Both the position numbers and the translations under genes were made by a program. The notes beneath the pieces are model-generated. The model was given only the letters and a program-made list of their open reading frames with translations. It had not been told where the DNA came from and did no database searches. Positions 6,009-19,794 of a stretch of 20,948 bases of DNA are shown here, in pieces; the first letter of the stretch is position 1; every line of letters starts with the position of its first letter. This DNA comes from a virus, in IMG/VR virus record IMGVR_UViG_3300021197_001266, positions 1-20,948 of that record; one strand, written 5' to 3'.

Positions 6009-6011
6009 GCC

Positions 6012-6266: not shown

Positions 6267-6496
6267 TTTTTTTCGTTTTCGTATTCTTTCATTTCTTCTA
6301 AGTCATCGGCAGGACTCGTCACCCTCTGCCAATGGGTGGGATCGAAGGCATAGCGAATCCCAAACTGCTCCTTGCCATCCCAATCGTACAGCATGTACCT
6401 TGGTTTGACTTCAGGCACCGGGATGTACCAGCAAATCAAGTACAGCCCCGGCTCTGTAGGTTCGTCCTGCCTCCACTTGAAAGGCCAACCGCTCAC
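6263..6496 (-). CDS. Hypothetical protein (77 aa)
   Basis: The gene starts with GTG, which overlaps the stop of the upstream gene as GTGA, and ends in an ATGA overlap with the next gene. The peptide begins MSGWPFKWRQDEPTEPGLYLICWY. It has an 'EPG.Y....W' opening seen in many small phage proteins (DUF551-like pattern), a central WDGKEQFGIRYAF and a late DPTHWQRV, then an acidic-basic tail. The 'PxEPGxYL...' and 'I.HWq.l/v' elements resemble small phage proteins of unknown function found in early regions. No function is assigned. Confidence 0.68.
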   Translation of the reverse strand: MSGWPFKWRQDEPTEPGLYLICWYIPVPEVKPRYMLYDWDGKEQFGIRYAFDPTHWQRVTSPADDLEEMKEYENEKK

Positions 6497-6909
6497 GGCT
6501 CGACCTCGTTTTTGATTTGACGGCGGGCCTCAAGCGCAAGGCGTGCATACTGCATGACCTGTTGGTCGTAGTTCGGCGCCGAATTGTCGCACACCTGCAT
6601 AGCGACACCGACAGCCCAAGATGCAATAATGCCCTTTGTATTGTCTGAGCTGGATCCACCACCGCCCGCAAAGGGTTTGGGTAGGCCGTTGAACCCCGGC
6701 TTGTCGAGCTTTAGTTTGTTGCCGTGGTGCGTGCTAAGCGAGGTGTATTCGACCTCAGCGCCCACTTGCCATTTGTCAGGGCTCTTTGCGTTAACTACTC
6801 CGGACGCGCCGTCGTCAAGTTCAACGTCAAAGGCATACATGAGTCCGTGGCTTCCTTGCCACGTTGGGGGGTTTGCGGGTTCTATCCGCGAGATTTTGGC
6901 TTGTGCCAT
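6493..6909 (-). CDS. Possible OB-fold-like early phage protein
   Basis: This is a 138-residue protein. Residues 1-75 run MAQAKISRIEPANPPTWQGSHG, MYAFDVELDDGASGVV, WQVGAEVEYTSLS and GNKLKLDKPGF. This series of short beta strands with 'G....VG.EVEY' resembles small phage proteins that I believe adopt an OB-like barrel, but I cannot verify this. After a glycine/serine linker (FAGGGGSSSDN, about 80-90) comes a helical C-terminal domain (KGIIASWAVGVAMQVCDN, then QQVMQYARLALEARRQIKNE). This shape (beta barrel, flexible linker, tail) would suit single-stranded DNA binding, though the tail lacks the usual acidic tip except EVEP. The role is inferred with low certainty. The gene itself is secure. Confidence 0.65.
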   Translation of the reverse strand: MAQAKISRIEPANPPTWQGSHGLMYAFDVELDDGASGVVNAKSPDKWQVGAEVEYTSLSTHHGNKLKLDKPGFNGLPKPFAGGGGSSSDNTKGIIASWAVGVAMQVCDNSAPNYDQQVMQYARLALEARRQIKNEVEP

Positions 6910-6912
6910 TGT

Positions 6913-7173
6913 TCAGGGGTTTATAGTTACGACCTCAAAGCCTTGTGCCTTGATGCCTTGAATTACTCGGTCTCGGTTGTGTTCGCCACGGAACCACCAC
7001 CGCGTGTTGTAGTCGCGGTCTTTGTGGCGGGTGTCAACGAACAATGTGTAGCCCATTTCTTCCATGCGGTCGGGCTTAAACTGGCACCCGTTGTCGGGCA
7101 TAAAGACGGAGGGCAACTCAAGGCTGTCCTTGACGACCGTCTCGCCGCTTTTCTTTTCGTAGTAGTCCTTCAT
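6913..7173 (-). CDS. Hypothetical protein (86 aa)
   Basis: The start overlaps the upstream stop as ATGA, and a 3-nt gap separates it from the next gene. The peptide begins MKDYYEKKSGETVVKDSLELP and includes CQFKPDRMEEMGYTLFVDTRHKDRDYN, TRWWFRGEHNRDRVIQGIKAQGF and a short hydrophobic end (EVVTINP). It has an alternating beta/alpha look and many charged residues. No known motif is recognised and there is no membrane segment. It belongs to a run of small co-transcribed early-type genes. Confidence 0.68.
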   Translation of the reverse strand: MKDYYEKKSGETVVKDSLELPSVFMPDNGCQFKPDRMEEMGYTLFVDTRHKDRDYNTRWWFRGEHNRDRVIQGIKAQGFEVVTINP

Positions 7174-7484
7174 GCCGCTTTCTTATCCAATTCGTACTGC
7201 TCAATCAAGTGCTTTGCGATCTCATAGTACGAAACATCTGCAAGGAATGCATTCGCATAGCTGCGAATCAAGTTGCTCATGTCATCACCGGGGTCGTTGG
7301 CATCCATGATTGCTTCCACGTATTCTTCCACCTCTTTTGTCATGGTGTATTGGATGTCTGCTTCGTCCTCCCCTTCCATCTCCTCCAGCATCTCGTTGAA
7401 GTAGTCGTAGTCCAAGTCAATGATTTCAAGGTTGACGCGCCACGTTGCGTAGTTCGTCCAGCCGTTGTAGGTGTTGTCGCTCAT
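7170..7484 (-). CDS. Small acidic protein with 'NGWTNYATW' domain
   Basis: This is a 104-residue protein from the ATG ending at 7484, which overlaps the upstream stop as ATGA. A longer start at 7523 exists. The N-terminus MSDNTYNGWTNYATWRVNLEI carries the 'NGWTNY.TW.V.L' motif of a small phage domain of unknown function (DUF7249-like from memory). A strongly acidic helical middle follows (DYFNEMLEEMEGEDEADIQ). The C-terminal part includes NLIRSYANAFLADVSYYEIAKHLIEQY, the typical 'vnw.EIA..l' end of that domain. It is found in early regions of diverse phages. The biochemical role is unknown. The acidity (pI clearly low) fits either a DNA mimic or an inhibitor, but this is speculative. Confidence 0.72.
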   Translation of the reverse strand: MSDNTYNGWTNYATWRVNLEIIDLDYDYFNEMLEEMEGEDEADIQYTMTKEVEEYVEAIMDANDPGDDMSNLIRSYANAFLADVSYYEIAKHLIEQYELDKKAA

Positions 7485-7750
7485 TTTGCGTGGTTTTCGA
7501 TTTCTTTCTTGAACTTTTTCCAAATGCGGTCGTATTGCACCTTAAATCGGTCGGCCTCCTCAGGCGATTTGAACCAATGGCATTGCCACAGATAATCCAA
7601 CTCCCTCTTAAACTCGTCCGCGTCGCGTTCGATAGATTTAGATGTGATATGCTGGATCCACTCGTTGTAATCCTTAGCCGGATCTTCCGGCATAATGGTG
7701 TGGCTGATGCCGTTGGGTTTTAGGTTGTCCATTTGTTTTGGGTTAGTCAT
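7481..7750 (-). CDS. Hypothetical protein (89 aa)
   Basis: The start lies 8 nt inside the end of the upstream gene, and the stop overlaps the next start as ATGA. The peptide begins MTNPKQMDNLKPNGISHTI. The main body is helical and charged: DYNEWIQHITSKSIERDADEFKRELDY, WQCHWFKSPEEADRFKVQYDRIWKKFKKE. It is rich in tryptophan and lysine/glutamate, with no membrane segment or zinc site. A start at MDNLKP (ending 7732) is also possible. The family is not recognised. Confidence 0.66.
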   Translation of the reverse strand: MTNPKQMDNLKPNGISHTIMPEDPAKDYNEWIQHITSKSIERDADEFKRELDYLWQCHWFKSPEEADRFKVQYDRIWKKFKKEIENHAK

Positions 7751-7943
7751 TGAATTGGAAGTAGATGATGTTACGAATGAAGGCGTCGTCGGTGCCGAAC
7801 TCTCGGCTCAAGGTTTCTTTCATTTCCTTGCGGTTGTAGCCGGCCTTGTACAAGTCCCAATAAGAAGCGCGTATGGCTTTCTTAATGCCGCCGTAGCCCT
7901 GTTGTGCAATGATGGCTTTGATGTTTTCAGGTGTAGGTCGCAT
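7743..7943 (-). CDS. Small helical protein, possible helix-turn-helix (66 aa)
   Basis: The peptide begins MRPTPENIKAIIAQQGYGGIKKAIRASYWDL and continues YKAGYNRKEMKETLSREFGTDDAFIRNIIYF. The second half has the outline of a helix-turn-helix: a helix starting at NRKEMKETL, a turn at EFG and a second helix TDDAFIRNII. No named family is recognised. Its ATG lies 6 nt after the T-rich end of a terminator-like hairpin, so expression depends on read-through or on a signal not visible here. Confidence 0.62.
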   Translation of the reverse strand: MRPTPENIKAIIAQQGYGGIKKAIRASYWDLYKAGYNRKEMKETLSREFGTDDAFIRNIIYFQFND

Positions 7944-7949
7944 GATTCG

Positions 7950-7974
7950 AAAATTAAGGGGGCACGTGGCCCCC
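7950..7974 (-). terminator. Terminator-like hairpin between the 43-aa and 66-aa genes
   Basis: On the minus strand the sequence is GGGGGC-CACGT-GCCCCC followed by TTAATTTT. The 6-bp all-GC stem and 5-nt loop with a T-rich tail fit an intrinsic terminator. It begins 8 nt after the stop of the 43-aa gene. The tail ends 6 nt before the next ATG, so it may be a partial terminator or attenuator rather than a full stop. Confidence 0.6.
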
Positions 7975-7982
7975 GTTTGTTC

Positions 7983-8114
7983 TTACAGTTGGTCGTTAAT
8001 GATTTCGAGGGCTTCCCAGAGTGTGCGATCCTCGTCGCTACCCATTTCAAAGGGGGAAACGCGGGTAAACTCCGACAGGAGGTTGTAGAGTTCTTCGAGC
8101 TGTAAAGGGTCCAT
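7983..8114 (-). CDS. Small acidic leader-position protein (43 aa)
   Basis: The frame runs from the ATG ending at 8114 to TAA at 7983. It encodes MDPLQLEELYNLLSEF, then TRVSPFEMGSDEDRTLWEA and ends LEIINDQL. It is acidic and helical with no membrane segment. It is the first gene after the promoter gap and is followed at once by a terminator-like hairpin. This isolates it from the rest of the operon and suggests either very high early expression or a leader/attenuator role. The ATG is preceded by an A/T-rich leader without a Shine-Dalgarno site. The family is not recognised. Confidence 0.6.
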   Translation of the reverse strand: MDPLQLEELYNLLSEFTRVSPFEMGSDEDRTLWEALEIINDQL

Positions 8115-8200
8115 ACTTATTTGTTTTTGTTAATGCTTACGGCACTAATATGGGGTGGCAAATTTCTTTTCGCAAACAAAACACGAAAAAAATGTTTTGC
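8115..8200 (-). promoter_or_regulatory. Candidate promoter and operator region of the leftward early unit
   Basis: This is the only sizeable gap (8115-8283) and separates two transcription units. On the minus strand a TTTG (8173-8176) lies 22 nt upstream of TATTAGTG (8143-8150), a partial match to the Bacteroidota -33 TTTG / -7 TAnnTTTG pattern (two mismatches in the -7 box). An A/T-rich leader leads to the ATG at 8114. Two dyads lie just upstream: TTTTCG-11 nt-CGAAAA (8167-8189) and the palindrome TTTTGCGCAAAA (8195-8206). They could be operator sites. The promoter is weakly supported by sequence alone; position is the better argument. Confidence 0.38.
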
Positions 8201-8230
8201 GCAAAAAGAAGCCCCCGGCGTTCCGGAGGC
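8201..8230 (-). terminator. Intrinsic terminator after the phosphoesterase gene
   Basis: On the minus strand GCCTCCGG-AACG-CCGGGGGC is followed by TTCTTTTTGC. The stem has 8 pairs with one T-G wobble and a 4-nt loop, then a T-rich run. It lies 53 nt past the phosphoesterase stop and ends the late/lysis transcription unit. The stretch 8231-8283 between the stop and the hairpin shows nothing else recognisable. Confidence 0.78.
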
Positions 8231-8283
8231 TCCTCGACTGAAAAAACAAATGGTTCGACCACCTGATGGCCGACACGAATATA

Positions 8284-9129
8284 CTACGAGGCGTCCCGTA
8301 CTTCGACGCGGTAGTCGTCGCAGTTTTCCACGAAGCGCACCCACCACCCCCCGAGGGTTGGCGTGTTGAATCCCTTCTCGGTGGCCCACCCTGCAAAGCG
8401 GTCTCCAAGTTTTTTGTACGATCCAAGGCGCATGAGGTAGCGCGTGCGCTGTTCGAGCTTCATCTTTTGGTTGATGCGGTCCACGGTGACGGGGTGATAC
8501 CACTTGTTGTGGTCGTGGCCCCTGACAAGGAAGTCGGCGTCAGGGAACTGTGCAAGATCAAGGTCGTTGTTTAGCACACCCTTTGAGCGTTTGGCGTTGC
8601 CGCCGTACCCGTGGTGATAATGCACGAGGAAACGCTTGGCGCTTTTCTTGCCACGGTGACAGGTCAGCCCAAGCCACCCCGCATAACCTCCCGTCTCTAC
8701 CCGTCCCCCTGCGGCGTTGATGATTTGCGCCACGCGATCAATGGGGGAAACCATCATGCGCTTCTCGATGTTTGTCTCGTGGTTGCCGCGTGAGATGAAA
8801 CGAATGACGTCCTTGTATTCTGCGAGCTTCTCGCCCACGTCTTGAATGACCTCGTCCACGTAGGTACACGCCTTGTATTCAGGTCGCAGTTCGGAGTAGT
8901 TGCCCCGAGGGTCGAAGCGCCCTTGCATAAGGTCGAACAGGTCGCCAAAAATGAAGACGCCGGCCCCAATGCGTCTCGCCTCCTCAAGGTGGCGGTGCAA
9001 AAGTGACCGGTCGCATTTGACGCTGTCGTAGTGAACGTCCGATATAAAAAGGAAGTTCTTGTCTGTGCCTCGCTTTTGAAAGTCAAGGTCGACGTGGTGA
9101 ACCGTTCGGCTCTTTCTTAGTATGTCCAC
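8284..9129 (-). CDS. Calcineurin-like metallophosphoesterase
   Basis: This is a 281-residue protein with all five metal-binding motifs of the family: ISDVHYD (Asp31, His33), FGDLFD (Asp63, Asp66), RGNHET (Asn116, His117), HYHHGYG (His172/173) and RGHDHN (His205, His207). It hydrolyses phosphomono- or diesters with two metal ions. The substrate is not visible and may be nucleic acid, nucleotide or a cell-surface phosphate. The start is GTG, 13 nt inside the end of the endolysin gene. The first 25 residues precede the first beta strand. It is the last gene before a strong terminator. In this position, after the lysis gene, it is more likely to act late or on DNA ends or host polymers than to be the SbcD-type replication nuclease, since no SbcC partner is present. 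Confidence 0.88.
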   Translation of the reverse strand: MDILRKSRTVHHVDLDFQKRGTDKNFLFISDVHYDSVKCDRSLLHRHLEEARRIGAGVFIFGDLFDLMQGRFDPRGNYSELRPEYKACTYVDEVIQDVGEKLAEYKDVIRFISRGNHETNIEKRMMVSPIDRVAQIINAAGGRVETGGYAGWLGLTCHRGKKSAKRFLVHYHHGYGGNAKRSKGVLNNDLDLAQFPDADFLVRGHDHNKWYHPVTVDRINQKMKLEQRTRYLMRLGSYKKLGDRFAGWATEKGFNTPTLGGWWVRFVENCDDYRVEVRDAS

Positions 9130-9473
9130 AATACGTTTTGAATTTTGTTTTCGTCCATGTCCGCGTGAATGAAGCCCTCCGCGATGCCCAGCCGATTAAA
9201 TCCGGCGTCGAGCAAAGCCTCGACCATGAGGTAGCGTCGTTGACTGTTGTCTACACGCAGGTCGACGGCAAGGCCGAGAAGGTGCGATGACTTCGTCGAA
9301 CCTCCGACGGCTCGATTGTGTGCGATTGTCCTCACCCCACTGGTCACCACAAAAGGAAAACCGGCAAGGTCACGGGCGTTCTCCAACGCTTCAATGACTG
9401 CCGGCTCCATCATTTCACCTGACCCCGGTTCGTCGGGGCTGTCGAATTCTTCGAGCTTGAAGTATTTGTACAT
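9117..9473 (-). CDS. Peptidase M15-type endolysin (D-Ala-D-Ala / L-Ala-D-Glu peptidase)
   Basis: This is a 118-residue single-domain zinc peptidase, the length of compact M15_3-type enzymes. The N-terminus MYKYFKLEEFDSPDEPGSG carries the 'F...EF.S.D' start seen in phage versions. Zinc ligands are His64 and Asp71 in SSHLLGLAVDLRV and His103 in GFIHADMD, and Arg48 in SGVRTIAHN completes the active site. It cuts the peptide part of peptidoglycan to lyse the cell. There is no signal peptide, so release needs a membrane partner. The adjacent membrane/coiled-coil gene (stop directly abutting this ATG) is the natural candidate. Confidence 0.88.
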   Translation of the reverse strand: MYKYFKLEEFDSPDEPGSGEMMEPAVIEALENARDLAGFPFVVTSGVRTIAHNRAVGGSTKSSHLLGLAVDLRVDNSQRRYLMVEALLDAGFNRLGIAEGFIHADMDENKIQNVLWTY

Positions 9474-9677
9474 TTAGAAACCTTTTTTGGCGAGCAAAAT
9501 TTTGAGTTCCTGAATGCCTTCGACGCATTCCTTGAGCATGCCCTTGAGTTCGTTTTGGTCTGACTCCAAACGGTACACGCGGCCCTTCAATTTTGCCACC
9601 TCTGCGTTGAAGTTCACCCAAACCCCAATGATTGCAACTAAAGTTGGCACCAAAGTTATTAACGCTTCGTAGGTCAT
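9474..9677 (-). CDS. Membrane plus coiled-coil protein, holin/spanin-like
   Basis: I place the start at the ATG ending at 9677 because it overlaps the preceding small gene's stop as ATGA, giving 67 residues. A longer start at 9725 (83 residues) is possible. The N-terminus MTYEALITLVPTLVAIIGVWVN is one hydrophobic segment. The rest is heptad-like and charged: AEVAKLKGRVYRLESDQNELKGML, then CVEGIQELKILLAKKGF. One membrane span followed by a cytoplasmic or periplasmic coiled coil is seen in phage holins, in inner-membrane spanins and in XhlA-type hemolysin-like proteins. It sits immediately upstream of the M15 endolysin, so a lysis role is the most likely reading. Confidence 0.7.
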   Translation of the reverse strand: MTYEALITLVPTLVAIIGVWVNFNAEVAKLKGRVYRLESDQNELKGMLKECVEGIQELKILLAKKGF

Positions 9678-9760
9678 GGCTTGGATTTGGGCTTGGGTTT
9701 CTCTTTCTCTTGTTTGGCGAGCCATGCACGCAAGGCGGCCTCATTTTCTTTGCGTGTCAT
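9674..9760 (-). CDS. Very small basic ORF (28 aa) linked by ATGA at both ends
   Basis: The ATG ending at 9760 overlaps the connector stop (ATGA), and its TGA overlaps the next ATG at 9677 (ATGA). The peptide begins MTRKENEAALRAWLAKQE and ends in a lysine/proline repeat (KEKPKPKSKP). Double coupling suggests real translation or at least a reinitiation bridge that carries ribosomes to the lysis genes. There is no recognised family, and a peptide of this size could also be non-functional. Confidence 0.45.
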   Translation of the reverse strand: MTRKENEAALRAWLAKQEKEKPKPKSKP

Positions 9761-10320
9761 TCGTATAGCTTACGAGCTAGATCCGGGTCAATGCCTTCGT
9801 GACCGATGGAGATGGTCATACCGTTTTGGAAGTACGCCGTCTTTTGCGGGAACATATCGGGCGAGGTGTTCGACGTGTACTCCGGGAAGCTCGTTTGGTT
9901 GTGACACAGATATTCCACCATGCGCGTGGTGTAGAATTGTGCGTTTTGCCGTGCGTTCTCGATTTCGCGGTGCAGGTCGTCCGGCCCGATGGCGTTGGTG
10001 TTTTCAGCCGTGCGGATGACCAACCCCCCGTTGTCCAATTTGACGTACAAATTCGGCAACATCTCGACCATTGACCACCACGCGGTCGTCTTGCGCACGT
10101 ACTCGTCTAAGAGGGTCTCGTAAACGCCCGAGGGGCCGCTTCCGGCCACGTCGCTCTTGAGCTTGTTCAAGAGGTCGGTGCCGAGGTACTGTTGGAGGTA
10201 CTTGTCTTGCGCCAAAATGATGGCGGGAACCATGACCGCTTCCTCCACCGCGCCGTTGAGTTGGGTAATGCGCTTGAGGTAGTCGGGATTGACGAAAAGG
10301 ACTTCAGCGGTGAGTGCCAT
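9757..10320 (-). CDS. Head-tail connector/adaptor-like protein
   Basis: This is a 187-residue protein following the portal gene directly. It begins MALTAEVLFVNPDYLKRITQLNGAVEEAVMVPAII and continues LAQDKYLQQYLGTDLLNKL and LLDEYVRKTTAWWSMVEML. The 'D.Yi...LGT.L...' followed by a helical W-containing block resembles Bacteroidota phage proteins of the DUF6712 type (from memory) that sit next to the portal and probably fill the role of the gp6/gp15 head-completion adaptors. No enzyme motif is present. The stop couples to the 28-aa ORF by ATGA. Confidence 0.7.
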   Translation of the reverse strand: MALTAEVLFVNPDYLKRITQLNGAVEEAVMVPAIILAQDKYLQQYLGTDLLNKLKSDVAGSGPSGVYETLLDEYVRKTTAWWSMVEMLPNLYVKLDNGGLVIRTAENTNAIGPDDLHREIENARQNAQFYTTRMVEYLCHNQTSFPEYTSNTSPDMFPQKTAYFQNGMTISIGHEGIDPDLARKLYE

Positions 10321-12033
10321 TTATTGCGGTGTTTGCCAGTTCTTAGGTTGAAGGAATCCACGGTTGACCATGTCGCGGGGACGCTGGGCGACCTTAGAGT
10401 CGTTTTGCTTCATCGGTGGCAACCCTGCCTCACGAATGATTGCGCGGGCGCGGTTCACGCCGACTTTTTTGTTGTTGCGGCGGAGGTAGGTGCGACGCTC
10501 CCAAAAGTGCTGGCAAGACCCCCCACCCTTGTATAGGAAAAGGTCGTATTCACGAGCGCCATTTGGACCCCACCCGGGGTTCACGGCACGAGCTGAAGCG
10601 GCGTCGATGTCTTCCTTGCGCCACACCCGGTCGCCAGCGTTCACCATTTTTTGGCAGAAGTCGCGGCTGTCGTAGGGCTCGCCTGTTTTTGGGTTTGTTC
10701 CCGGCCCGCCCGTTTTCTTGGGCATATATGCGTACCGCACCTTGATAACTGCGTTGTCTTGCTCCTCCGAGGTGGCTTGCGGCTTGCCGCTTGGCACGGT
10801 CGCAAACGTCCACATGGCGTCCTGTTGTGCTTCGGTGTCGTAGTCCACGCGGCGGGCGTCAATCAACTCCCATTCGTCGCTTTCCTCCTCGCCCATCTCG
10901 ACGAGGTAGTCGCAGGCGAGGTTCAAGGCGTCCGCGCTCAACTCGGTGTTAGCATCCGGGTCCTCGACAATCTCCGCGTCCGTTTCGACCACTTCAACTG
11001 TCACCTTGGCCGGTGTGTCGGCCGCCTCAAGGACGCTTTCAATAGATGCTGTCAAGATCCGTTGGTATGGCTTGACGACTTGCTTGTCAAAAAGCTCGGA
11101 TGCGATTTCAAGCTCTTGGGTGTTGCCCAGTTGGCCCGCCGTCTTCACACCAAACATGGCCGAAGACACCACGCGGTGGCCGACCATGATTTTGTCCGAC
11201 ACCTCGGTCGAGAGGAATTGGTATTGCTTGTCCGCATCGCTCAACGGGAACGGCTCAAAGTCGGGCTTCCTGTCGGGTTGATCTGAGTACGTGACGAGGA
11301 ACTTGCCGGCGTTGGTAGCCCCTGCAAGTTGGCGCTCGATGTCGTTGCGGATTTTGTGGCGCTCCTCCTGTGATGGCACTCCATTCTTGAAATGGATGGT
11401 GAACGAAGGTGCGAGGCCGTTCTTGATGTTGTTGATGTGGTACGTGCCAATCTCCTTGTCCAACTCGATGTAGTTGATGGATCCAACGTAGTCAGGCTTG
11501 GGATAGTAATACGATCCGGGTGAGAACGGCTTCACGTACAAAATTTGGTGAGGGTAGTCGTTCTTGTCTTCAGGGTTAAAGCACCGCACCTTCACCGGTT
11601 CAATTTGCTTGTTGCTCCAGTCCTCTGAGTAGTAGTAGAACTCAACCTTCTCGTCGTCGTTGACTTCGGCCGAACGGATGCGTTCAAACGGGCAGTGCTT
11701 CACCTTTTTGATGGAGGTACGCCCGAGGTTGTAGGCGATTTCCAACGCGAAGCCGCCTTGGATTTTTAGGTCGAGGCACGCCTTGCGTATCTCGTCGTCC
11801 AAACCCCACTCCTCCAACTTCAACCGCGCGTCAAGGGTGTCGGCTTTCACCCCGTCGCCAAATATCATGTACGCGATGGACGTGCAAAGGGCGTTGTGTG
11901 TGGCGCTTGAGTGGTAGAGGTCGATGAGGTACTGCGGAAACATATTGTCGTCCCCGTAGTTCATCCACCCTTCACGGCTTGAAGTTTCCGCGTAGCTCTT
12001 GGCCTGGTATTCTTTGAGTTGTAGTAAATCCAT
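10321..12033 (-). CDS. Portal protein with C-terminal extension
   Basis: This is a 570-residue protein. The N-terminal part is portal-like: GWMNYGDDNMFPQYLIDLYH (22-41), SSATHNALCTSIAYMIFGDGV (42-62), WGLDDEIRKACLDLKIQGGFALEI. The middle has ERQLAGATNAGKFLVTYSDQ and LFDKQVVKPYQRILTASIESVL, as in HK97/SPP1-type portals of Bacteroidota phages. The portal forms the dodecameric DNA channel at one capsid vertex. Roughly the last 130 residues are an extra module (SRDFCQKMVNAGDRVWRKEDI, NPGWGPNG, LFLYKGGGSCQHFWERRTYLRR). I recall this module as the C-terminal domain of XkdF-like proteases in related phages. Here it is on the portal. The terminase is not in this window. Confidence 0.84.
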   Translation of the reverse strand: MDLLQLKEYQAKSYAETSSREGWMNYGDDNMFPQYLIDLYHSSATHNALCTSIAYMIFGDGVKADTLDARLKLEEWGLDDEIRKACLDLKIQGGFALEIAYNLGRTSIKKVKHCPFERIRSAEVNDDEKVEFYYYSEDWSNKQIEPVKVRCFNPEDKNDYPHQILYVKPFSPGSYYYPKPDYVGSINYIELDKEIGTYHINNIKNGLAPSFTIHFKNGVPSQEERHKIRNDIERQLAGATNAGKFLVTYSDQPDRKPDFEPFPLSDADKQYQFLSTEVSDKIMVGHRVVSSAMFGVKTAGQLGNTQELEIASELFDKQVVKPYQRILTASIESVLEAADTPAKVTVEVVETDAEIVEDPDANTELSADALNLACDYLVEMGEEESDEWELIDARRVDYDTEAQQDAMWTFATVPSGKPQATSEEQDNAVIKVRYAYMPKKTGGPGTNPKTGEPYDSRDFCQKMVNAGDRVWRKEDIDAASARAVNPGWGPNGAREYDLFLYKGGGSCQHFWERRTYLRRNNKKVGVNRARAIIREAGLPPMKQNDSKVAQRPRDMVNRGFLQPKNWQTPQ

Positions 12034-12034
12034 G

Positions 12035-12430
12035 TCACTCGTAATATACGACGTTGTCAGGTATCGAAATGGCCGGTGTACTCCATGCGGCCGAGGCTGT
12101 CACGCGGGCGGCTCCCGTTTCGCAAATGCCAACCACCGCGCCGTTCGTGGGGTCGGTGTTGGATGAGCTGTTTTGGCCGTACACGGTGTACGTGTAGAGG
12201 CCGGATTGGGTGATAAGCACCTCGCCGGCCGCATCTGCGTCCGTGGGAAGGTCAAACTTCGTCTCCCTTGCATTGTCGACCGACGTGTTGAGGACGGCCT
12301 TGTGCGTTGCTTCCGTGGCCTCGTTCGTCAAGACGATGAGGTAGTGCGAAAACGTGGCGAGGTACTTTCGCGCTTGGTAGGGCGAAAGGCTCACAACGTT
12401 GGCGGCGGCGTTTGGTGTTAGGTGTATCAT
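12035..12430 (-). CDS. Neck/structural protein upstream of portal (131 aa)
   Basis: The start is the ATG ending at 12430 (MIHLTPNAAANVVSLSPYQ). An in-frame TTG at 12454 would lie inside the terminator hairpin and is rejected. The body is a predicted beta-rich domain: HYLIVLTNEATEATHKAVL, KFDLPTDADAAGEVLITQSGLYTYTVYGQNSS. The 'G.YtY.vYeQ' motif with a 'TNGAVVGICETG' end is one I recall from small proteins beside the portal in many Bacteroidota phages. It is separated from the portal gene by one base. It is probably a structural head or neck component; no enzymatic residues are apparent. Confidence 0.66.
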   Translation of the reverse strand: MIHLTPNAAANVVSLSPYQARKYLATFSHYLIVLTNEATEATHKAVLNTSVDNARETKFDLPTDADAAGEVLITQSGLYTYTVYGQNSSSNTDPTNGAVVGICETGAARVTASAAWSTPAISIPDNVVYYE

Positions 12431-12436
12431 GGTATC

Positions 12437-12464
12437 AAAAAAGGGGAGAGCCAACGCCCTCCCC
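12437..12464 (-). terminator. Strong intrinsic terminator between tube-type and neck genes
   Basis: On the minus strand GGGGAGGGC-GTTG-GCTCTCCCC is followed by TTTTTT. The 9-bp stem has one G-T wobble, with a 4-nt loop and six T. It is the best intrinsic terminator in the window. It lies about 50 nt after the stop at 12514, and its T run ends 6 nt before the ATG at 12430. It would limit read-through from the capsid genes to the portal and lysis genes. Confidence 0.85.
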
Positions 12465-12513
12465 CTCCTTTTGTAACTATAAACGGTCCCAAGGCTTTTT
12501 GGCCCGGTGTTTA

Positions 12514-13050
12514 TTACGGTGTGACGTTGAAGGTGACGTCTCCGGCAACTGCGGTTGCCTTATCCAAGAATGGAGCCGGAATGGCCTCCTCGGCTGTAAA
12601 CTCCAACGTGAAGCCGTTCAGGTCGCCGATGGCGGTACCTGTGGCGATGCTTCCTCCAGTCAATTCAGCGCCACGAATATGGCCCATGACAAAGTAGTTG
12701 TCGTTCATGTCTTGCACGACGATGGCGAGGCGTCCCTTAGCGAGGTTTTGCAGTTCGACAATGTCAGCGGACACCGGCTTGTTGCAAACCAAAGAAAGAA
12801 CCTGTGAATAAAAGACCGTTCCGTTTTCGACCGAGGCGTTCACGGTTTGCGTGAGGCTCGACGTGTTCTTTGGGCTGACAAAGTCCTCAAGGGAGAGTGC
12901 CGCCGTGCTGTTGTCAATTTCACCGGCTTGGGTTGCGCCAACGTCTTCCCAAATGCCGTCAGAAAACGAACCAACCCACACCTTTTTCACACCTCCGAGG
13001 GCGTCGCGGCAAGGTAAAGACCGTCCTGTAATTGTAAGGCTACAAGCCAT
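12514..13050 (-). CDS. Tail-tube or head-decoration-type structural protein
   Basis: This is a 178-residue protein beginning MACSLTITGRSLPCRDALGGVKKVWVG. It is beta-rich, with LTQTVNASVENGTVFYSQVLSLVCN and LAKGRLAIVVQDMNDNYFVMGHIRGAELTGGSIATGTAIGDLNGFTLEF. The block 'G.LA....D.N..YF..G...GAE.T.G....G...GD..G.tl.F' is one I associate with major structural proteins of Bacteroidota phages, either the tail tube or a capsid decoration. It lies between the major capsid gene and a strong terminator, with a hairpin on its other side, as expected for a highly expressed structural gene. I cannot decide between the two roles. Confidence 0.7.
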   Translation of the reverse strand: MACSLTITGRSLPCRDALGGVKKVWVGSFSDGIWEDVGATQAGEIDNSTAALSLEDFVSPKNTSSLTQTVNASVENGTVFYSQVLSLVCNKPVSADIVELQNLAKGRLAIVVQDMNDNYFVMGHIRGAELTGGSIATGTAIGDLNGFTLEFTAEEAIPAPFLDKATAVAGDVTFNVTP

Positions 13051-13074
13051 GATTTCAGAGGTTAGGAAGATGCA

Positions 13075-13094
13075 GGGGAGCCCAGTCGCTCCCC
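13075..13094 (-). other. GC-rich hairpin between capsid and tube-type genes
   Basis: A perfect 7-bp stem (GGGGAGC / GCTCCCC) with a 6-nt loop lies between the capsid stop (13114) and the next ATG (13050). On the minus strand it is not followed by a T run (TGCATCTTCC), so it is not a standard terminator. It could stabilise the capsid mRNA end or reduce expression of the following gene. Confidence 0.5.
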
Positions 13095-13113
13095 CGCGTT
13101 CTTCGGGTTAATG

Positions 13114-14121
13114 TTACGCGCTACGGCGAGAGATGGCGATGGAGCCAGCGTCCACAATCTGTGTGCCACCGCTGAACTGCATGATGACGCGAGTCACGTC
13201 GTCACCGGTCACGTCGCGGAGGTTCAAGATGCTCGCGTTCACGTGGTCGGTCAACAAGTCAGTACCGAAGTACAACTGGTTGGGATTGCAGAAGATGATG
13301 GTGTCGTTTGCCATACCTGCGGGACATACGATTGGGAACCCGAGGTAGGTCAATGGACGAGCGTCGCCCAAGAAAGTTGGCGAGAACGCCGCCGCAGAAC
13401 CTTCAGCGGGCACGACGCGGTCCACCAAACCGGACATGGCGCGTTGCAACAAGAACAACGACTTCTTGCTCATGTAGATGACGGCGTTGCTGTCACCCTG
13501 CACTTCGCTTGGCGCGTTGTCAACGATGTCGTCCAACTTGCTCAAGATGCCAGTCACGGACGCGTTGTCAGCGGTGAAAGCGCCGATGGCGGTTTTTTCG
13601 TAACCGGGTGTCGCGTCCACGAGTTGGTGGCACAAGCCGTCAAAGGCAGTACCCAAGCGTCCGGCGCCTGTGTTGCCTCCGTCGGTAGGGTCGTAGTTAC
13701 CACCCCACAAGTTGATTTCGACGTTTTCAGCAACCTTGGCGGCCACGTATTGGGCAACGTAGGTTGTAAAGTCAGCGGGTGCGGCGCTGTTTTGGCCGGA
13801 CATTTGCATACCCTCCCATGTGGCGCGGAGGTCTTCGTTGCACACTTGCTCGTTGACCTTCAACGGGCTTGTTGCCAAGACAGCCTCCCCAAGGGTCAAC
13901 TGGCCAGCGGCAGTAGTAAAACCACAGTCGTCATTGGCCTGAATGGCGGCGCCGGAGAACTTCCGGAGGACGGCTTTGCTGTGAACGTTTTGCAACACGC
14001 TCACGTAGTTGTTCGCGATTGTGTCTGCGGACAGGATAGCCGCCGCCACGTATGGACGGGCCGCCTCACCTGCGTAGGTTCCAACGGCGATGGACGCGTT
14101 GGCGAATTTGTATTGGCTCAT
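13114..14121 (-). CDS. Major capsid protein
   Basis: This is a 335-residue protein directly after the acidic scaffold-like gene (ATGA overlap), in the canonical protease-scaffold-capsid order. It begins MSQYKFANASIAVGTYAGEAARPYVAAAIL. The composition is alanine-, threonine- and asparagine-rich, as in coat proteins. Features include LKVNEQVCNEDLRATWEGMQ, NVEINLWGGNYD, VIYMSKKSLFLLQRAM and PLTYLGFPIVCPAGMANDTIIF. The last block, with the 'G.PI......M..d.i...' pattern followed by LYFGTDLLTDH, is the usual beta-hinge/P-domain end of HK97-fold major capsids. It builds the icosahedral head around the scaffold. The large antisense open frame on the plus strand is a shadow of its codon bias. Confidence 0.88.
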   Translation of the reverse strand: MSQYKFANASIAVGTYAGEAARPYVAAAILSADTIANNYVSVLQNVHSKAVLRKFSGAAIQANDDCGFTTAAGQLTLGEAVLATSPLKVNEQVCNEDLRATWEGMQMSGQNSAAPADFTTYVAQYVAAKVAENVEINLWGGNYDPTDGGNTGAGRLGTAFDGLCHQLVDATPGYEKTAIGAFTADNASVTGILSKLDDIVDNAPSEVQGDSNAVIYMSKKSLFLLQRAMSGLVDRVVPAEGSAAAFSPTFLGDARPLTYLGFPIVCPAGMANDTIIFCNPNQLYFGTDLLTDHVNASILNLRDVTGDDVTRVIMQFSGGTQIVDAGSIAISRRSA

Positions 14122-14846
14122 TTCTGAGAGAATTTAGAATGGAGGGCGGCGACGCGCTCCGTAAGTGAAAGTTTCGACAAATCAATGTGCTCAGGTTGCG
14201 CCGTTGGAGTGGCGTGCTTGAGCATGGGAACGGCTTCGTCTTTCATTTCTGAAAGCTCGGCCTTTACGGCGGCCAGTTCCTCAACAACGGGGTCGGCCTC
14301 GGGGGCTTCCTCCGCTTTAGGTTCTTCTTTGGGTGCCTCGGGGTTGACGTCGGACATATCTTCCTTGTCTTCCTCTTTGAGGGCTTCAAACGCGGACTTA
14401 ATCATGTCCTCCACCTCGGCACGGGTGACGTAAGACGGCTTTTTCTCGTCTTCGTCTTCCATTTCGATTTCGACCTCAATTTCGAGCTCCTCCTCGGTAT
14501 CTTCCTCGGTGGCTTCGGGCTCGTCGGCGCTTTGCTCGACGCGATCTTCGTTGGCTTCCTCAGCTTCCGGCTCCTCAGCGGCCTTGATTTCTTCAATGGC
14601 GCCGCCCTCAGCAACCACCATCAAACGGCCGTCGGCCAATTCGTAGTCGCCAGCGGGCACAGAGATGCGTTCGCCCTCGTCGTTGATGATGTAGGCTTCA
14701 GCGCCAACGGCAAATTCGTCGTCGGTGTAAACGACGGTGCCGTTTTCAAGGGTCACCTCGGCGAGTTCCGTGCCTTTCTCCTCGCTGACTGTCAAGTTGA
14801 CGTCAAATTTGTTGAGGATGTCTTGCACGCGTTGTTGGATGTTCAT
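14118..14846 (-). CDS. Acidic scaffold-like protein
   Basis: This is a 242-residue protein between the prohead protease and the major capsid protein, where scaffolds usually lie. The N-terminal 70 residues are a small domain (MNIQQRVQDILNKFDVNLTV, LENGTVVYTDDEFAVGAEAYII). Residues about 80-210 are dominated by glutamate, aspartate, alanine and proline (EEPEAEEANEDRVEQSADEP, EEELEIEVEIEMEDEDEKK). They are followed by a helical part (ELAAVKAELSEMKDEAVPM) and a short basic C-terminus (LSLTERVAALHSKFSQK). Strong acidity plus a helical C-terminus that contacts capsid is typical of phage scaffolds. I saw no catalytic motif. It presumably leaves the head after cleavage by the upstream protease. Confidence 0.82.
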   Translation of the reverse strand: MNIQQRVQDILNKFDVNLTVSEEKGTELAEVTLENGTVVYTDDEFAVGAEAYIINDEGERISVPAGDYELADGRLMVVAEGGAIEEIKAAEEPEAEEANEDRVEQSADEPEATEEDTEEELEIEVEIEMEDEDEKKPSYVTRAEVEDMIKSAFEALKEEDKEDMSDVNPEAPKEEPKAEEAPEADPVVEELAAVKAELSEMKDEAVPMLKHATPTAQPEHIDLSKLSLTERVAALHSKFSQK

Positions 14847-14887
14847 GGGTGTGCGTTTTGTATTAGACGGTTTGAAGGGGGCAATGC

Positions 14888-15832
14888 TTACGCCTCCCTT
14901 GATTTTTTTTCGTTTTCGGCCATGATTTGTACGGCGACCTTCTCAAGCTCGGACAAGTTTTCAAACTCTCGCACCTTTGAATCGGCCCACCGCTTGCCGG
15001 CTTTACCACCCCACAACAGGTACGAGATGTAGCCGCAGTCGTTCGGATCGCCGTTGTCATAGTACACTTCGGCACGAGCCAAGTACGAGGCCATACGTCG
15101 AATGGTTTCCCGGCTGAGTGCTTTGCGTTGCGCGAGCTGTTGAGCGCGCACCTTGCCCGTCTGTGTGGCGCACTTGTTGCCCTCACGCTCGTTGAGTTCG
15201 ATGCCGCGCTTGGCGTTGTTCACCACCGCGTCCGGGTAGTCGGAAAACGTCTCAAGCTCTAAGGCGTTCAACACCGCGTCGACCACGTCGTAGCCCATTT
15301 CGGTTTCTTCCTCGTTTTTTTGCATCTTGTCGGCGAAGTAGCCCTCGATTGAGAACCCCTTAACCTTTCCCTCCTTTACCCATTCCTGCCAAATGGCTTC
15401 GTTGTCGACCTTAACGGCCACCATCCATGTACCGACCGGCACGTCAAGGTCGTACAATGCCGACTTGTCCTTGTCCTTGTCTTCTACTAGCCAAGATTCG
15501 ACGACAGTCAGGCCGTTGATAGCGTGTTCGTGTTCCAAGGTGTGTGCCGTTTGTCGTCCCTGTTGCAAGTAAAGCTCGGCCGCACGTCGGACCGTTGACT
15601 TAGCGAAGTAGACGTAGAACTCACCCTCAGCGTTCTGACGATAGATCGGCTTGTCAGGGACAAGGGCCGGCCCCATGAGGATCCGCTTGTCGTTGTCGAC
15701 CTCGGCAAATTGCACCTTTTGGTCTTTCAATGCCACAAAGTCCAACTCGATGGCCGGACGGTCCACGAGCGAGATGGCTTCAATGCCGAACACCTCGGCC
15801 TCCTCGTCAATTATTAGTTCCACAATTTTCAT
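14888..15832 (-). CDS. XkdF-like prohead serine protease
   Basis: This is a 314-residue protein. It begins MKIVELIIDEEAEVFGIEAISLVDRPAIEL, then has KRILMGPALVPDKPIYR, FYVYFAKSTVRRAAELYLQ, HTLEHEHAINGLTVVESWLVED, VPVGTWMVAVKVDNEAIW and KVKGFSIEGYF. This series is the XkdF-like phage serine protease pattern; H and S in HEHAINGLTVVESW and GFSIEG are the obvious catalytic candidates. It processes the scaffold and capsid during head maturation. The C-terminal 90 residues are a separate helical domain (ALSRETIRRMASYLARAE, YISYLLWGGKAGKRWA) that I recall as a C-terminal module in phage head proteins. The start overlaps the tape measure stop (ATGA). A GGAGG lies against the ATG but is too close to be a Shine-Dalgarno. 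Confidence 0.84.
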   Translation of the reverse strand: MKIVELIIDEEAEVFGIEAISLVDRPAIELDFVALKDQKVQFAEVDNDKRILMGPALVPDKPIYRQNAEGEFYVYFAKSTVRRAAELYLQQGRQTAHTLEHEHAINGLTVVESWLVEDKDKDKSALYDLDVPVGTWMVAVKVDNEAIWQEWVKEGKVKGFSIEGYFADKMQKNEEETEMGYDVVDAVLNALELETFSDYPDAVVNNAKRGIELNEREGNKCATQTGKVRAQQLAQRKALSRETIRRMASYLARAEVYYDNGDPNDCGYISYLLWGGKAGKRWADSKVREFENLSELEKVAVQIMAENEKKSREA

Positions 15833-17397
15833 CCTCCGAGAGTTGCTTGGTCTTGGACCTGTTGGTTTGCTTGTTGTGCGTTGCTCACGTTTTGCGCGAT
15901 GACATACGCTTGAATTGGGCCTTCTTGCCCTGCCCCACCACCCAAGAACCCGAGGTCAAGCTGTGGTGCCCCCCCAAACACGCCGCCGTTGCCGCGCAAT
16001 GGTTCGCGGTCAGTCGTCTCGCTCAAACTTGTCGACTGAAATTGAGCGCGGTTGATGGCCGTGATTTGGGCGGCACCTGCCGCACCTGCGGCGGCGGCGG
16101 CAATAAACCGAGAGCCGGGGAAGGTGCTGTCCTTTGCGAGAGCGCTTGTGACGGCTTCGGCGGTGTTGGTGATGGCCGTGGCAAGGGAGAGGGCTTTGTT
16201 GCGCTTAAATCGCTTCCTAGCGTTCTCCTCGCCGTCTTTTGCGAAGGCTTCGTTGAGTTGGGCGAGGGCGGCAAACGAAGCGCGGAATAATTGCGCACGT
16301 ATTTCGACCTCATCTTGTAGCAGGTCTACGGTGTTGTCAAACTCGTCGCGGCGTGCTTTCTTGCGTTTCTCCGCTTCGCTGATGACGATGCCCGTGGCAA
16401 CCGTTTCCGCGTCCTTGCGCATCATCAAACCGCGTTCCTGCTGGTTGTTGACTTCATCAATTAAGACAACCTGGGCTTGAAGGGCTTCGTTGACCTCTCC
16501 AAGGCGTTCCAGTTGTAGCGCGTACTCCTCTTGCTGGATGCGTAGCCCCTCGGCGCGGATGGTGTTGAGTTTGTTGTTGAGGGTTGTTTGCAGTTCGAGC
16601 GACTCTTGCGTCAAGCCGAAGATGTTGGCTTCCAACTCGGCGACTCGTTCGCGGTCCTCTGTCGTAGTTCGTGATGAATCCAAGCGCAACTTGGCGATGG
16701 CGAGCTCCTCCTCGGCCTGTCGCTTGCGTTCTTCAAACAAACCGCGCTCCAATTCACCCGCACGCTCTGCGGCGGCCCCCCGTTCTTCTATGCTTCGTGT
16801 GGTGTCTTCGGCCACAAGGTTCAACTCCTTAATTTCGGCCCGTGTTTGGGCCGTTGCCACCGTTTGTTTGATACGCGCGTCCTCAAGGGCAATTTCGCGC
16901 TCTATCAGTTGGTTGTACAAATCGACTTGCTTGCCGTACTCGTCGTTGTTGTTGGACAACGCGCGGTTCAAGTCCTTGGCCGCACCTATAAAATCTCTTG
17001 AAAACAGCTTGAAGATGGCCCCGCCCAATGCCGACACTCGTTGCAACAGCACGTCCACGACGGCTTGAACAGGCGCAAAGGCACGCTTCAAGGCGCGGGC
17101 ACCCTCCTCGGTCTTGCCGAATTGCCGCACGAGCTCCACGACCGCGATGACAAGCGCACCAATACCCGTTCCGATGACGGCGGCGCGGGTCAGCTTGAGC
17201 CCCTTGATAAAGTTCTTGATACCTGCGATGCCATTTTGCAGGTTGAAACCGGCAATGGCGTTGAGCTTGGCCGCCAAAAGGTTGGCATCGCCCGACGCGA
17301 CGACGATGTTGTCGTCAAGATTTTCAATTTCCTTGCTGACTTGGCTCGTGTCCGTGTCAAACTCAAGGATGATTTGTTGCTTCGTTACGTTAGCCAT
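15829..17397 (-). CDS. Tail tape measure protein
   Basis: This is a 522-residue protein from the ATG ending at 17397 (MANVTKQQIILEFDTDTSQ). It has a short N-terminal domain, then a hydrophobic stretch (AVIGTGIGALVIAVVELV, about residues 73-90). A long coiled coil follows (about 150-390), rich in E, R, Q, L, A with segments such as EERGAAAERAGELERGLFEER and ARKRFKRNKALSLATAIT. Next is an alanine-rich segment (FIAAAAAGAAGAAQITAINRA) that could be membrane-active, then a glycine-rich end. Predominant coiled coil plus one or two hydrophobic segments is the tape-measure pattern; length sets the tail. About 520 aa suggests a short to moderate tail. A longer start at 17478 would overlap the small membrane gene and is rejected. 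Confidence 0.78.
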   Translation of the reverse strand: MANVTKQQIILEFDTDTSQVSKEIENLDDNIVVASGDANLLAAKLNAIAGFNLQNGIAGIKNFIKGLKLTRAAVIGTGIGALVIAVVELVRQFGKTEEGARALKRAFAPVQAVVDVLLQRVSALGGAIFKLFSRDFIGAAKDLNRALSNNNDEYGKQVDLYNQLIEREIALEDARIKQTVATAQTRAEIKELNLVAEDTTRSIEERGAAAERAGELERGLFEERKRQAEEELAIAKLRLDSSRTTTEDRERVAELEANIFGLTQESLELQTTLNNKLNTIRAEGLRIQQEEYALQLERLGEVNEALQAQVVLIDEVNNQQERGLMMRKDAETVATGIVISEAEKRKKARRDEFDNTVDLLQDEVEIRAQLFRASFAALAQLNEAFAKDGEENARKRFKRNKALSLATAITNTAEAVTSALAKDSTFPGSRFIAAAAAGAAGAAQITAINRAQFQSTSLSETTDREPLRGNGGVFGGAPQLDLGFLGGGAGQEGPIQAYVIAQNVSNAQQANQQVQDQATLGG

Positions 17398-17549
17398 GCC
17401 ACCATTTTGTAGATGAGCCAAACAAACGTTGCGATGTAAGCAACGGTCAACACGACGTCCAAAGGCTGGATCCACCACATGGAGGGCTTGCGTGTCTTGG
17501 TTGCCACGAGCAGGTCGATGGCTTCAATAATATGACGCGGGTTTTCCAT
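17385..17549 (-). CDS. Small membrane protein (54 aa)
   Basis: The frame runs from ATG (17549) to TAA (17385), 4 nt after the upstream tail gene and overlapping the tape measure start by 13 nt. The peptide begins MENPRHIIEAIDLLVATKTRKPSMWW and continues IQPLDVVLTVAYIATFVWLI, a single hydrophobic span near the C-terminus, ending YKMVAWLT. It fits the gap exactly, which supports it as a real gene. Its role is unknown. A membrane-embedded partner of tail or DNA injection, or a lysis-related protein, are possibilities. Confidence 0.6.
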   Translation of the reverse strand: MENPRHIIEAIDLLVATKTRKPSMWWIQPLDVVLTVAYIATFVWLIYKMVAWLT

Positions 17550-17553
17550 TTGC

Positions 17554-19794
17554 TTACGAGGGTTGAGCCTGTTCGTTGAGTGGTTTGCACAAGTTCACGG
17601 GAGTGACCCCGCCGATGGCTTGGTCGTTCTTGACCCACCGGTACCCGTACAACTCACAACACTCTTGCGACCCGTAGTCAGGCGAGGCCGACGTCGTGCC
17701 GTTGAACAAAATGTAGTTGAACTTGGTTGAGAGCGATGTCGGCGTGTCGGCGCATATAGCAACGTCGGACAGCACCTTGATACATTCGACCTGAACCAAG
17801 CCCTCCACGTTCGCGTCGTACGTCATTTTGAGCACACGCCACCGCGCCCCACGCATCCATATTTTGTCGCTGAACTCAAAACCGGCCAACTCCACGCGGT
17901 CGAGCTTGACGTGTAGCGTCATGATGCGGGCCTCCTCGCTGTACAACTCGGTGACGTATTGTGCCCAGTACTTGAAGTACAACGTGTCGCGGGGGTTGCA
18001 TTCCATTGGGATAAATGCCGCCTCCATGCCGTAGTTGAGGTCCAACGATGTCAGCACGGGCAGGTCTACCGAATAATTTGAGAAGCTCGGGAAGGTCGTG
18101 AGCGTCTGTTCGACTCCGCTGTCGTTGCGTAAATACCACGTCCCAAAGTCGTTCACGAGGTCGTGGTAGTAGGCCAACATGGGCGGCGGGTTTTCAATGC
18201 CTGTTCCGTCCTGTTTAAGGCTTCGGTGAATTGGGAATTGAGAGCCAGGAATAACTGAGGTGATGTAAGGCGCAAAGGGCGTCTCAATGCGCTTGTCGCC
18301 CGTAGCGAAGTCGTTGTCTGCGTCGGTTACTTGGAAGCGGCCGTAAACACGGTCCAAACTGCTGTCGATGGCTTCGCTGAGGAAGTCCTTGCCGGGCTTG
18401 TGCGTCCATTCGTATCGCTTGGCCTGAAGGTCCGTTGTGGGCTTGAGGGTAATGTCGTGGTCGTAGTCGATGAGTTCGTTCCACGCCTTCTCGGTCCCGG
18501 CGGCCATGTAGTCCACATACGGCTCAATGAGCAGGTGGTTCTCCCTGTTTTTGTCCGGCACAAACACGAGGTTGAACATTTTTTGCAAACCCGTCACGAA
18601 GTCGATCTGCTTCACCTCGGGCATATTGCGGGCCACGTCTACTTCAAAACCGGAGAACGGGAAGCCCCCAATGATTTCAAGCGACGTTCGCACACCACCG
18701 ACGGTCGAGTCGTTGCCTTTGATGACGACCCCAGAGGCATGAGCCCGGCCCTTGACCTCTACAGTGTCGCCACTCACAAGCACAAACTCTTGAAAGCCGG
18801 TTGAGCGATTGTTGGCGACGTTGTCAAGGTTAGCCGCTTCAAACAGAACTGTTGAGCCGTTTTTTACCACTTGAATGGTAACGTGTTCCGTGTGTGAGCC
18901 TTGGTCGTAGGAATACGTCAAGTTGGCACGAAAAAATCCCGTGTAAGGGGCCGTGAACTTGTTGGTCGTGTTGTTGAAGTTTTCGCCTTCATCAACGCCT
19001 CCGGTGGCGTCGTCCTCAAGGTCGAGAGTCGTTAAGGTAGACCCTGTGAAGTCAGCCGTTAAGCCGGCTCGTGCGTTGGTATTTTCCGCTTCGCTTGAGA
19101 CAGGTGTCGGTGTGCCAACCAATCCGGGCAGGTAAATCTTGGCGAATGATTGAAGGCCAGTTGTTGAAAGGAATGTCGAGTCGAAGGTGTAGCCGGCAGT
19201 GGACAGGATTTTGTCCAACACGAACTTGGCTTGGAACATGGGCGTCAACTCTCCAAGGTACAAACCGTCGGCGGCTGTCCACGGTGGGCGGTTGTTGTCA
19301 AAGTCCCAGTTGAACCCCTTGTCGATGAGGCCGTAGGTTATTTCGGGGCCAATGCCTACACCTGACCACGAACCGGTGACAAAGTTGTACGTGAGGTCAT
19401 GGTTGTTGGCGCTAAAATTCAAGTCGGAGAGCATCCCGTCACCGATGGCCGTCTTGAGGTCCACCGCACCCGCAAAAAACACGAGCTCGATGTCCGCGTA
19501 CTCTTTCTTTTGGAGGTAGACGGCTTTGACCTGCACAAACCCGCGAAGGATAGACACGGAACCCGAAAACAGCTCGGCCGCTTTCTTGGTCTTGAGGTTG
19601 ACGCCGCCCGGGTCGCTCATGTCTACCGGCCCAAAGACGTCCATGTTCTTGGCCGTACCCGGCACCCTGAAGGTCTGCGAGAACGAACCGACCGGGCTGT
19701 TGATGCCCTCAAGGTCGGAGAACTGAACCGTGAGGTTGACCGCCTCGTCTTGGTAGAGGTCGAGATCAACGTCGGAAACGTTAAGCCTCAGCAT
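17554..19794 (-). CDS. Large tail protein (Bacteroidota phage type)
   Basis: This is a 746-residue protein beginning MLRLNVSDVDLDLYQDEAVNLTVQFSDLEGI and then VGSFSQTFRVPGTAKNMDVFGP. The pattern 'LDLY.DE...L..QF.D...I..p.gsFSqtF.vPgT..N..vFG' is an N-terminal signature I recall from tail proteins of Bacteroidota phages. The centre holds a TNF-like or collagen-like beta region (NKFTAPYTGFFRANLTYSYDQ, then IQVVKNGSTVLFEAANL) similar to receptor-binding or C1q-like folds. The C-terminus is a cysteine-containing tail (SQECCELYGYRWVKND, then VNLCKPL). It is probably a baseplate hub/tip or fibre component contacting the host surface. It overlaps the upstream tail gene by 7 nt. Confidence 0.72.
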   Translation of the reverse strand: MLRLNVSDVDLDLYQDEAVNLTVQFSDLEGINSPVGSFSQTFRVPGTAKNMDVFGPVDMSDPGGVNLKTKKAAELFSGSVSILRGFVQVKAVYLQKKEYADIELVFFAGAVDLKTAIGDGMLSDLNFSANNHDLTYNFVTGSWSGVGIGPEITYGLIDKGFNWDFDNNRPPWTAADGLYLGELTPMFQAKFVLDKILSTAGYTFDSTFLSTTGLQSFAKIYLPGLVGTPTPVSSEAENTNARAGLTADFTGSTLTTLDLEDDATGGVDEGENFNNTTNKFTAPYTGFFRANLTYSYDQGSHTEHVTIQVVKNGSTVLFEAANLDNVANNRSTGFQEFVLVSGDTVEVKGRAHASGVVIKGNDSTVGGVRTSLEIIGGFPFSGFEVDVARNMPEVKQIDFVTGLQKMFNLVFVPDKNRENHLLIEPYVDYMAAGTEKAWNELIDYDHDITLKPTTDLQAKRYEWTHKPGKDFLSEAIDSSLDRVYGRFQVTDADNDFATGDKRIETPFAPYITSVIPGSQFPIHRSLKQDGTGIENPPPMLAYYHDLVNDFGTWYLRNDSGVEQTLTTFPSFSNYSVDLPVLTSLDLNYGMEAAFIPMECNPRDTLYFKYWAQYVTELYSEEARIMTLHVKLDRVELAGFEFSDKIWMRGARWRVLKMTYDANVEGLVQVECIKVLSDVAICADTPTSLSTKFNYILFNGTTSASPDYGSQECCELYGYRWVKNDQAIGGVTPVNLCKPLNEQAQPS

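Follow-up and report, generated by a model that had tools for sequence, protein, structure and literature searches.

A hairpin followed by a run of T residues stands almost directly against the start codon of gene B on the minus strand of the phage DNA analyzed here (the window, the whole stretch of 20,948 nucleotides). This placement raises the question of how B and the genes behind it are expressed. The late genes of the minus strand run in the order protease, g6, M, A, B, portal, g11, holin, and endolysin. M (positions 13114 to 14121; 335 aa) is assigned as an HK97-fold major capsid protein. Comparison with the PDB gave HK97-type capsid folds with E values down to 5e-9 (probability, 1.00), and the assignment rests on these fold matches, since the model scored low (mean pLDDT, 57), with weak PHROG matches in addition. 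Gene A (12514 to 13050; 178 aa) encodes a probable tail-tube protein. Nearly all of its top structural matches were tubes or related Hcp proteins (best Z score, 9.1, at low identity), and we consider the tube-like assignment to be of moderate strength because the best Foldseek match had an E value of just 0.011. The A-to-B spacer (12431 to 12513) is, at 83 nt, the longest among the late genes. It leads to B (12035 to 12430; 131 aa), and the portal gene (10321 to 12033), assigned with PHROGs, begins 1 nt after B. Thus, genes of the abundant virion type (HK97-fold capsid and tube-like) lie upstream of the hairpin and the portal block lies downstream. A phage particle requires its components in widely differing amounts, and a terminator close to a start codon can influence transcription and translation at once. 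The junction provides a homologous, alignable case of this kind across many uncultured aquatic phages, probably of Bacteroidota.

Read 5′ to 3′ on the minus strand, the element consists of GGGGAGGGC (12464 to 12456), a GTTG loop (12455 to 12452), GCTCTCCCC (12451 to 12443), TTTTTT (12442 to 12437), GATACC (12436 to 12431), and the ATG of B at 12430. The core hairpin (12443 to 12464) was supported by the sequence, a terminator scan, RNAfold, relatives, and covariation, and the T run (U6) was supported by the sequence and by comparison with relatives. The 9-bp core stem contains 7 G-C pairs and one G-U pair, and this G+C-rich stem with U6 directly after it has the makeup of an intrinsic terminator. 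The initial annotation of this DNA had described a 9-bp hairpin whose TTTTTT ends 6 nt before ATG 12430. The placement was confirmed exactly, and the 9-bp stem holds as the core but is somewhat too short, since the purine tract AAGGAG (12470 to 12465), identified by folding, relatives, and covariation, adds outer pairs with the T run and extends the stem to 15 bp.

In RNAfold, the 34-nt element folded at −19.4 kcal/mol (z, −4.37) and a 56-nt segment with the 15-bp stem folded at −24.8 kcal/mol (z, −3.76), with 0 of 200 shuffles equally good in each case. Within a 116-nt context, the z score was just −1.47, and 12 of 200 shuffles were equally good. The terminator scan also picked up this minus-strand hairpin, with the register shortened slightly. 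Two observations may go against reading the hairpin as a terminator. The minimum-energy fold pairs the U run with the purine tract, and terminator-like sites were no more common in window positions 1 to 20000 than in shuffles (26 versus 31.7 ± 5.7). Since the single-window statistic is modest, the case for the hairpin rests on conservation. A search of window positions 8000 to 14300 against Rfam gave no match to a curated family with an E value up to 1.

We assembled 241 loci by scanning for proteins like A, B, and diverged forms of A, together with the record of the Nonlabens phage P12024S. Both A and B could be placed in 169 of these loci; of the remainder, 70 lacked a match to B, 1 lacked a match to A, and 1 was excluded by the placement rules. 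The 169 loci gave 58 distinct spacers, of which 52 represent the window's clade and 6 the Nonlabens type. The spacers are not independent because they were drawn from 12 A-protein clusters (70% identity). The B start was placed by B homology for all spacer counts; L050 and L089 have an ATG inside the hairpin loop that is not the B start. By rule, the hairpin and T run were present in 48 of the 52 distinct window-clade spacers. In all 48, the T run after the stem was 3 or more nucleotides long and the next ATG lay 6 to 13 nt past it. B is the next gene in 46 of these, which bears out the earlier placement of the hairpin directly before the first gene of a block of B, portal, connector, and lysis genes. 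L093 (2228 to 3542) and L077 (2464 to 3115) carry one or two extra genes of ~220 aa between the terminator and B, and in these loci, the ATG follows the T run by 8 and 10 nt, respectively. The hairpin could be seen by eye in each of the four spacers that failed the rule: L087 has a hairpin with U6 that lies 35 nt from the ATG, and L265, L276, and L279 have interrupted T runs. The terminator after A was retained despite other stem sequences in L019 to L022, L077, L087, and the Nonlabens type. Gene A is tandemly duplicated in L015 (398 to 1476), where the hairpin follows the second copy.

Covariation was analyzed in 18 chosen representatives, in which 93.7% of the 269 cells of the 15-bp stem pair. 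Both sides had changed in 7 of the 15 pairs, with 13 such cells compared to 4.2 in shuffles (0 of 500). All covariation measures exceeded those of shuffles and slid controls, figures that are not probabilities because the sequences are related. These compensatory changes in 18 sequences argue for a stem that is kept by selection. The outer six pairs, between the U run and the purine tract, are mostly A-U and G-U. The AGGA found at the stem's 5′ foot was retained in 45 of 50 distinct window-clade spacers, a retention that appears to exceed what pairing with the U run needs and that a plain terminator does not explain.

Other hairpins occur nearby. Single-sequence folds of many relatives gave a weak upstream hairpin without a U run, HP1 (12480 to 12513, minus strand). 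The M-A spacer (13051 to 13113, minus strand) holds a G-C hairpin without a U run whose structure is conserved in relatives; of 49 distinct spacers, 6 carry a T-rich tail behind it. Because the M-A hairpin usually lacks a U run, the U run is specific to the A-B hairpin; judged by sequence, these spacers often contain a hairpin of some kind, and the U run sets the A-B one apart. The idea that the A-B stem is unusually invariant compared to the M-A stem was rejected, with 11 distinct 8-bp stems in 50 A-B spacers and 13 in 49 M-A spacers (some stems shift register, and the best-scoring one was taken).

The start of B was examined for its structure and its likely host context. The Nonlabens phage relatives have 33% portal identity to the window. 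Among genome contigs, scanning with the portal protein gave no relative, scanning with A gave three weak matches in MAGs of Lachnospiraceae, Muribaculaceae, and Bacteroidales, and a DNA search in a phage collection gave no match to the window. From the Nonlabens phage relatives and the weak MAG matches, we infer a host in the Bacteroidota. Bacteroidota do not use Shine-Dalgarno (SD) sequences, and where no SD is required, the distance from terminator to ATG can shrink to 6 to 13 nt. The window has no SD between the T run and ATG 12430, only the GATACC remainder, and this ATG is the right start since nearly all homologues align from residue 1.

It had also been proposed that a ribosome would have to load on a leader overlapping the hairpin, and the measurements agree: the B start is the most structured of 22 window starts, ranking lowest in both folding energy (−19.9 kcal/mol over −35 to +20) and accessibility (0.25). 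The start of g16 was off by one base in this set. Relative to the B start, the stem reaches −13 in its core form and −7 in its extended form. Two reports provide a comparison: in Prevotella bryantii, reporter protein fell to 0.7% when a hairpin of −11.1 kcal/mol was placed in the SD region and was unaffected by one at −21 (PMC3155529), while in Flavobacterium johnsoniae, secondary structure near the start tunes initiation (PMC6847099). Given where the stem ends, the hairpin likely inhibits B translation if the host is in the Bacteroidota. The B-portal gap is 0 to 3 nt in all but two of nine gap kinds, so translation of portal may be coupled to that of B.

Known phage junctions allow the arrangement to be placed. 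The terminator between genes VIII and III of M13/Ff sets high pVIII and low pIII levels. This junction resembles that of the window, with a hairpin after the major coat gene VIII, U9, and 13 nt to the gene III start, but GGAG follows the U run directly in M13 and is absent in the window. In T7, Tφ separates gene 10, for the major capsid protein, from gene 11 and so comes directly after the most abundant virion gene, a position comparable to that in the window. Its U6 is followed by 18 nt that contain AAGGAGG before the ATG, compared to 6 nt without an SD in the window, and Tφ serves T7's own polymerase. T7 genes 11 and 12 are expressed by read-through of Tφ only (PMC5592923), a precedent for a leaky terminator that sets ratios. 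The d'Aubenton-Carafa formula gave terminator scores of 43 for the window spacer, 22 for Tφ, and 50 for M13 gene VIII-III. P12024S and its relatives have a homologous junction, with a terminator after A and then B. They differ in having AACAAA and CGTTATA between the terminator and the ATG, where the window has no room; its own box lies 5′ of the hairpin. Taken as a class defined by comparison of sequences, the junction is a real, conserved terminator type that sits tighter to the ATG (6 to 13 nt) than those of T7 and M13 and lacks their SD. The literature, some of it available only in part, yielded no paper on the A-B junction or on P12024S promoters; we do not claim absence from print.

Our favored explanation, which we hold to be reasonably probable, is that an intrinsic terminator ends the capsid/tube mRNA and that its tight placement limits the portal and lysis proteins by read-through and by a structured start without an SD. 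The hairpin and U run would act as a factor-independent terminator and form the 3′ end of the capsid/tail-tube mRNA. Most capsid/tube transcripts would end there, and some polymerases would read through or start in the spacer. A read-through mRNA would carry the hairpin within the translation initiation region of B, crowding its start codon, so that two limits would apply to the portal and lysis proteins, one set by how many polymerases read through and the other by the structured, SD-less start. Supply of the portal and lysis genes by read-through in the window is suggested by analogy with Tφ. The dosage proposed in the initial annotation, with capsid and tube proteins high and portal and lysis proteins low, fits this explanation and would follow if termination is partial and downstream expression is low. 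However, read-through need not supply the downstream genes, because the downstream unit of AT-rich relatives seems to have its own promoter.

An unseen promoter had been raised as the other route to B. Such a promoter is favored in the AT-rich relatives by a two-box motif at leaderless spacing, while in the window's clade, the corresponding box is degenerate, lies 5′ of the hairpin, and is suggestive only. The motif of the AT-rich relatives lies between the terminator after A and the ATG of B and sometimes overlaps the terminator: in L330 to L334 and L354, where the two appear merged, the terminator loop contains the −30 box, and the U run serves as spacer up to the −7 box immediately after it. 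The Nonlabens-type boxes lie between terminator and ATG, AACAAA about 31 nt and CGTTATA about 12 nt before the ATG. Among 50 rows examined, 42 had a usable start, and both boxes were at the set positions in 35 of these and missed in 7, compared to a mean of 0.1 and a maximum of 2 in shuffles. P12024S (L362) has five plus-strand copies of a strict form (AAACAAA, 9 to 16 nt, CGTTAATA, 2 to 4 nt, ATG), at 2998, 5379, 23929, 25168, and 26769, before genes 05, 08, 41, 44, and 45; they are candidates for a phage late promoter with leaderless spacing. The strict form was found in 0 of 200 Markov-random genomes, and a looser form adds gene 21280 in P12024S. At the P12024S sites, CGTTAATA has its final base 4 nt away from the ATG, and in F. 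johnsoniae, the −7 element lies 4 to 5 nt from the transcript start (PMC6847099). This similar spacing suggests that mRNAs from P12024S-type boxes would be leaderless, provided that the box acts like the F. johnsoniae −7 element. The AT-rich relatives, which include P12024S with its cultured host, make the choice between terminator and promoter directly testable, and end mapping could tell read-through and an own promoter apart.

In the window, the Nonlabens-type boxes are absent at the B start, where −12 to −1 reads TTTTTTGATACC. The box of the window is CCGTTTATAG (12477 to 12486, minus strand), a degenerate promoter-like sequence 5′ of the hairpin that overlaps the 3′ side of HP1. A phage sigma factor acting there would start a B-portal-lysis mRNA at the foot of the hairpin. 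The hairpin would then close the tube mRNA at its 3′ end and also form the 5′ leader, as a gate or attenuator, for the portal-lysis mRNA. A related box precedes late genes in the AT-rich relatives and g6 in the window's clade, where CCGTCTAATACAAAA (14847 to 14870, minus strand) is kept in relatives and is a candidate late promoter. This element is clear before g6 and degenerate in the A-B spacer, and its −35-like part is, by eye, not common to the A-B site. A matrix trained on g6 ranked the A-B site 7th of ~42,000 window positions, and its p value for the A-B spacers combined was 5e-5, but the control M-A spacers scored too (p, 0.008), so the specificity of the matrix is weak and the A-B box is suggestive. 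The pattern GTTT?AT[ACT] occurred 5′ of the hairpin in 29 of 50 distinct spacers and in 7 of 20 representatives (shuffle mean, 1.0; maximum, 4), leaving 13 representatives without it. A window ORF (3551 to 4039, minus strand) with a region-4-like helix-turn-helix matched the sigma factor family phrog_1740 (E value, 9.5e-8), as did P12024S gp33 (E value, 5.8e-6); however, the two proteins gave no alignment to one another (E value, 0.10). Moreover, a terminator ~36 nt from the start site would halt that transcript also. We therefore regard a promoter 5′ of the hairpin as possible but doubtful. A host-type promoter ending in the U run (TTTG of TTTTTTG) was rejected as a general mechanism; it is absent in L012, L032, L038, L090, and L098, among many.

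The two arrangements could also be forms of one compact terminator/promoter node whose order is reversed between the AT-rich relatives and the window's clade. The −30 box of a phage-sigma leaderless promoter would lie in the terminator loop in the former (the L330 to L334 and L354 arrangement). In the latter, the box would lie 5′ of the hairpin, and the hairpin would both finish the capsid/tube mRNA at its 3′ end and gate the portal-lysis mRNA from its 5′ end. We consider this scheme rather unlikely.

The hairpin could instead affect RNA stability or processing, protecting the 3′ end of the capsid/tube mRNA or marking a cleavage site with little termination. The G-C hairpin between M and A shows that hairpins in these spacers need not terminate, but a T run of at least 3 in every one of the 48 rule-based spacers of the window's clade would be unneeded for pure stability, and this makes the explanation an unlikely one.

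A further possibility concerns how B is translated. In T4 gene 25, the ribosome-binding site is split, and a stem moves the SD to normal spacing. The AAGGAG tract could likewise be an SD brought near the ATG by the folded stem, and the 45 of 50 distinct spacers with AGGA 5′ of the G run agree with such a role. However, with the stem looped out, the SD-ATG distance is ~12 to 19 nt and variable, AAGGAG is able to pair with the U run instead, and addition or removal of an SD had no effect in P. bryantii (PMC3155529), which leaves a split site very improbable. Initiation at TTG 12454, inside the hairpin and behind AAGGAGG, would be in frame with B, and the frame is open to that codon, but this start is refuted almost beyond doubt by conservation, as the loop holding it differs among relatives (ATAC, GCAA, and ATTT) and B homology begins at the ATG.

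Two other hairpins were seen on the minus strand of the window, one shortly before the g16 start (7943 to 7982) and a terminator-like one at ~8200 to 8235, after the last late gene and before the next gene block. The stem was also considered as a lineage marker and rejected, since the exact pattern occurs in at least 120 IMG/VR stretches, many in unrelated phages. Loci found by the pattern (L104 to L217) were excluded from all conservation counts because they had been chosen by it. In these unrelated phages, the GGGGGAGGGC..GCTCTCCC stem with a T run recurs several times after capsid-like genes, and the pattern loci include gp23-like genes, named by eye, that are followed by TATAAATA.
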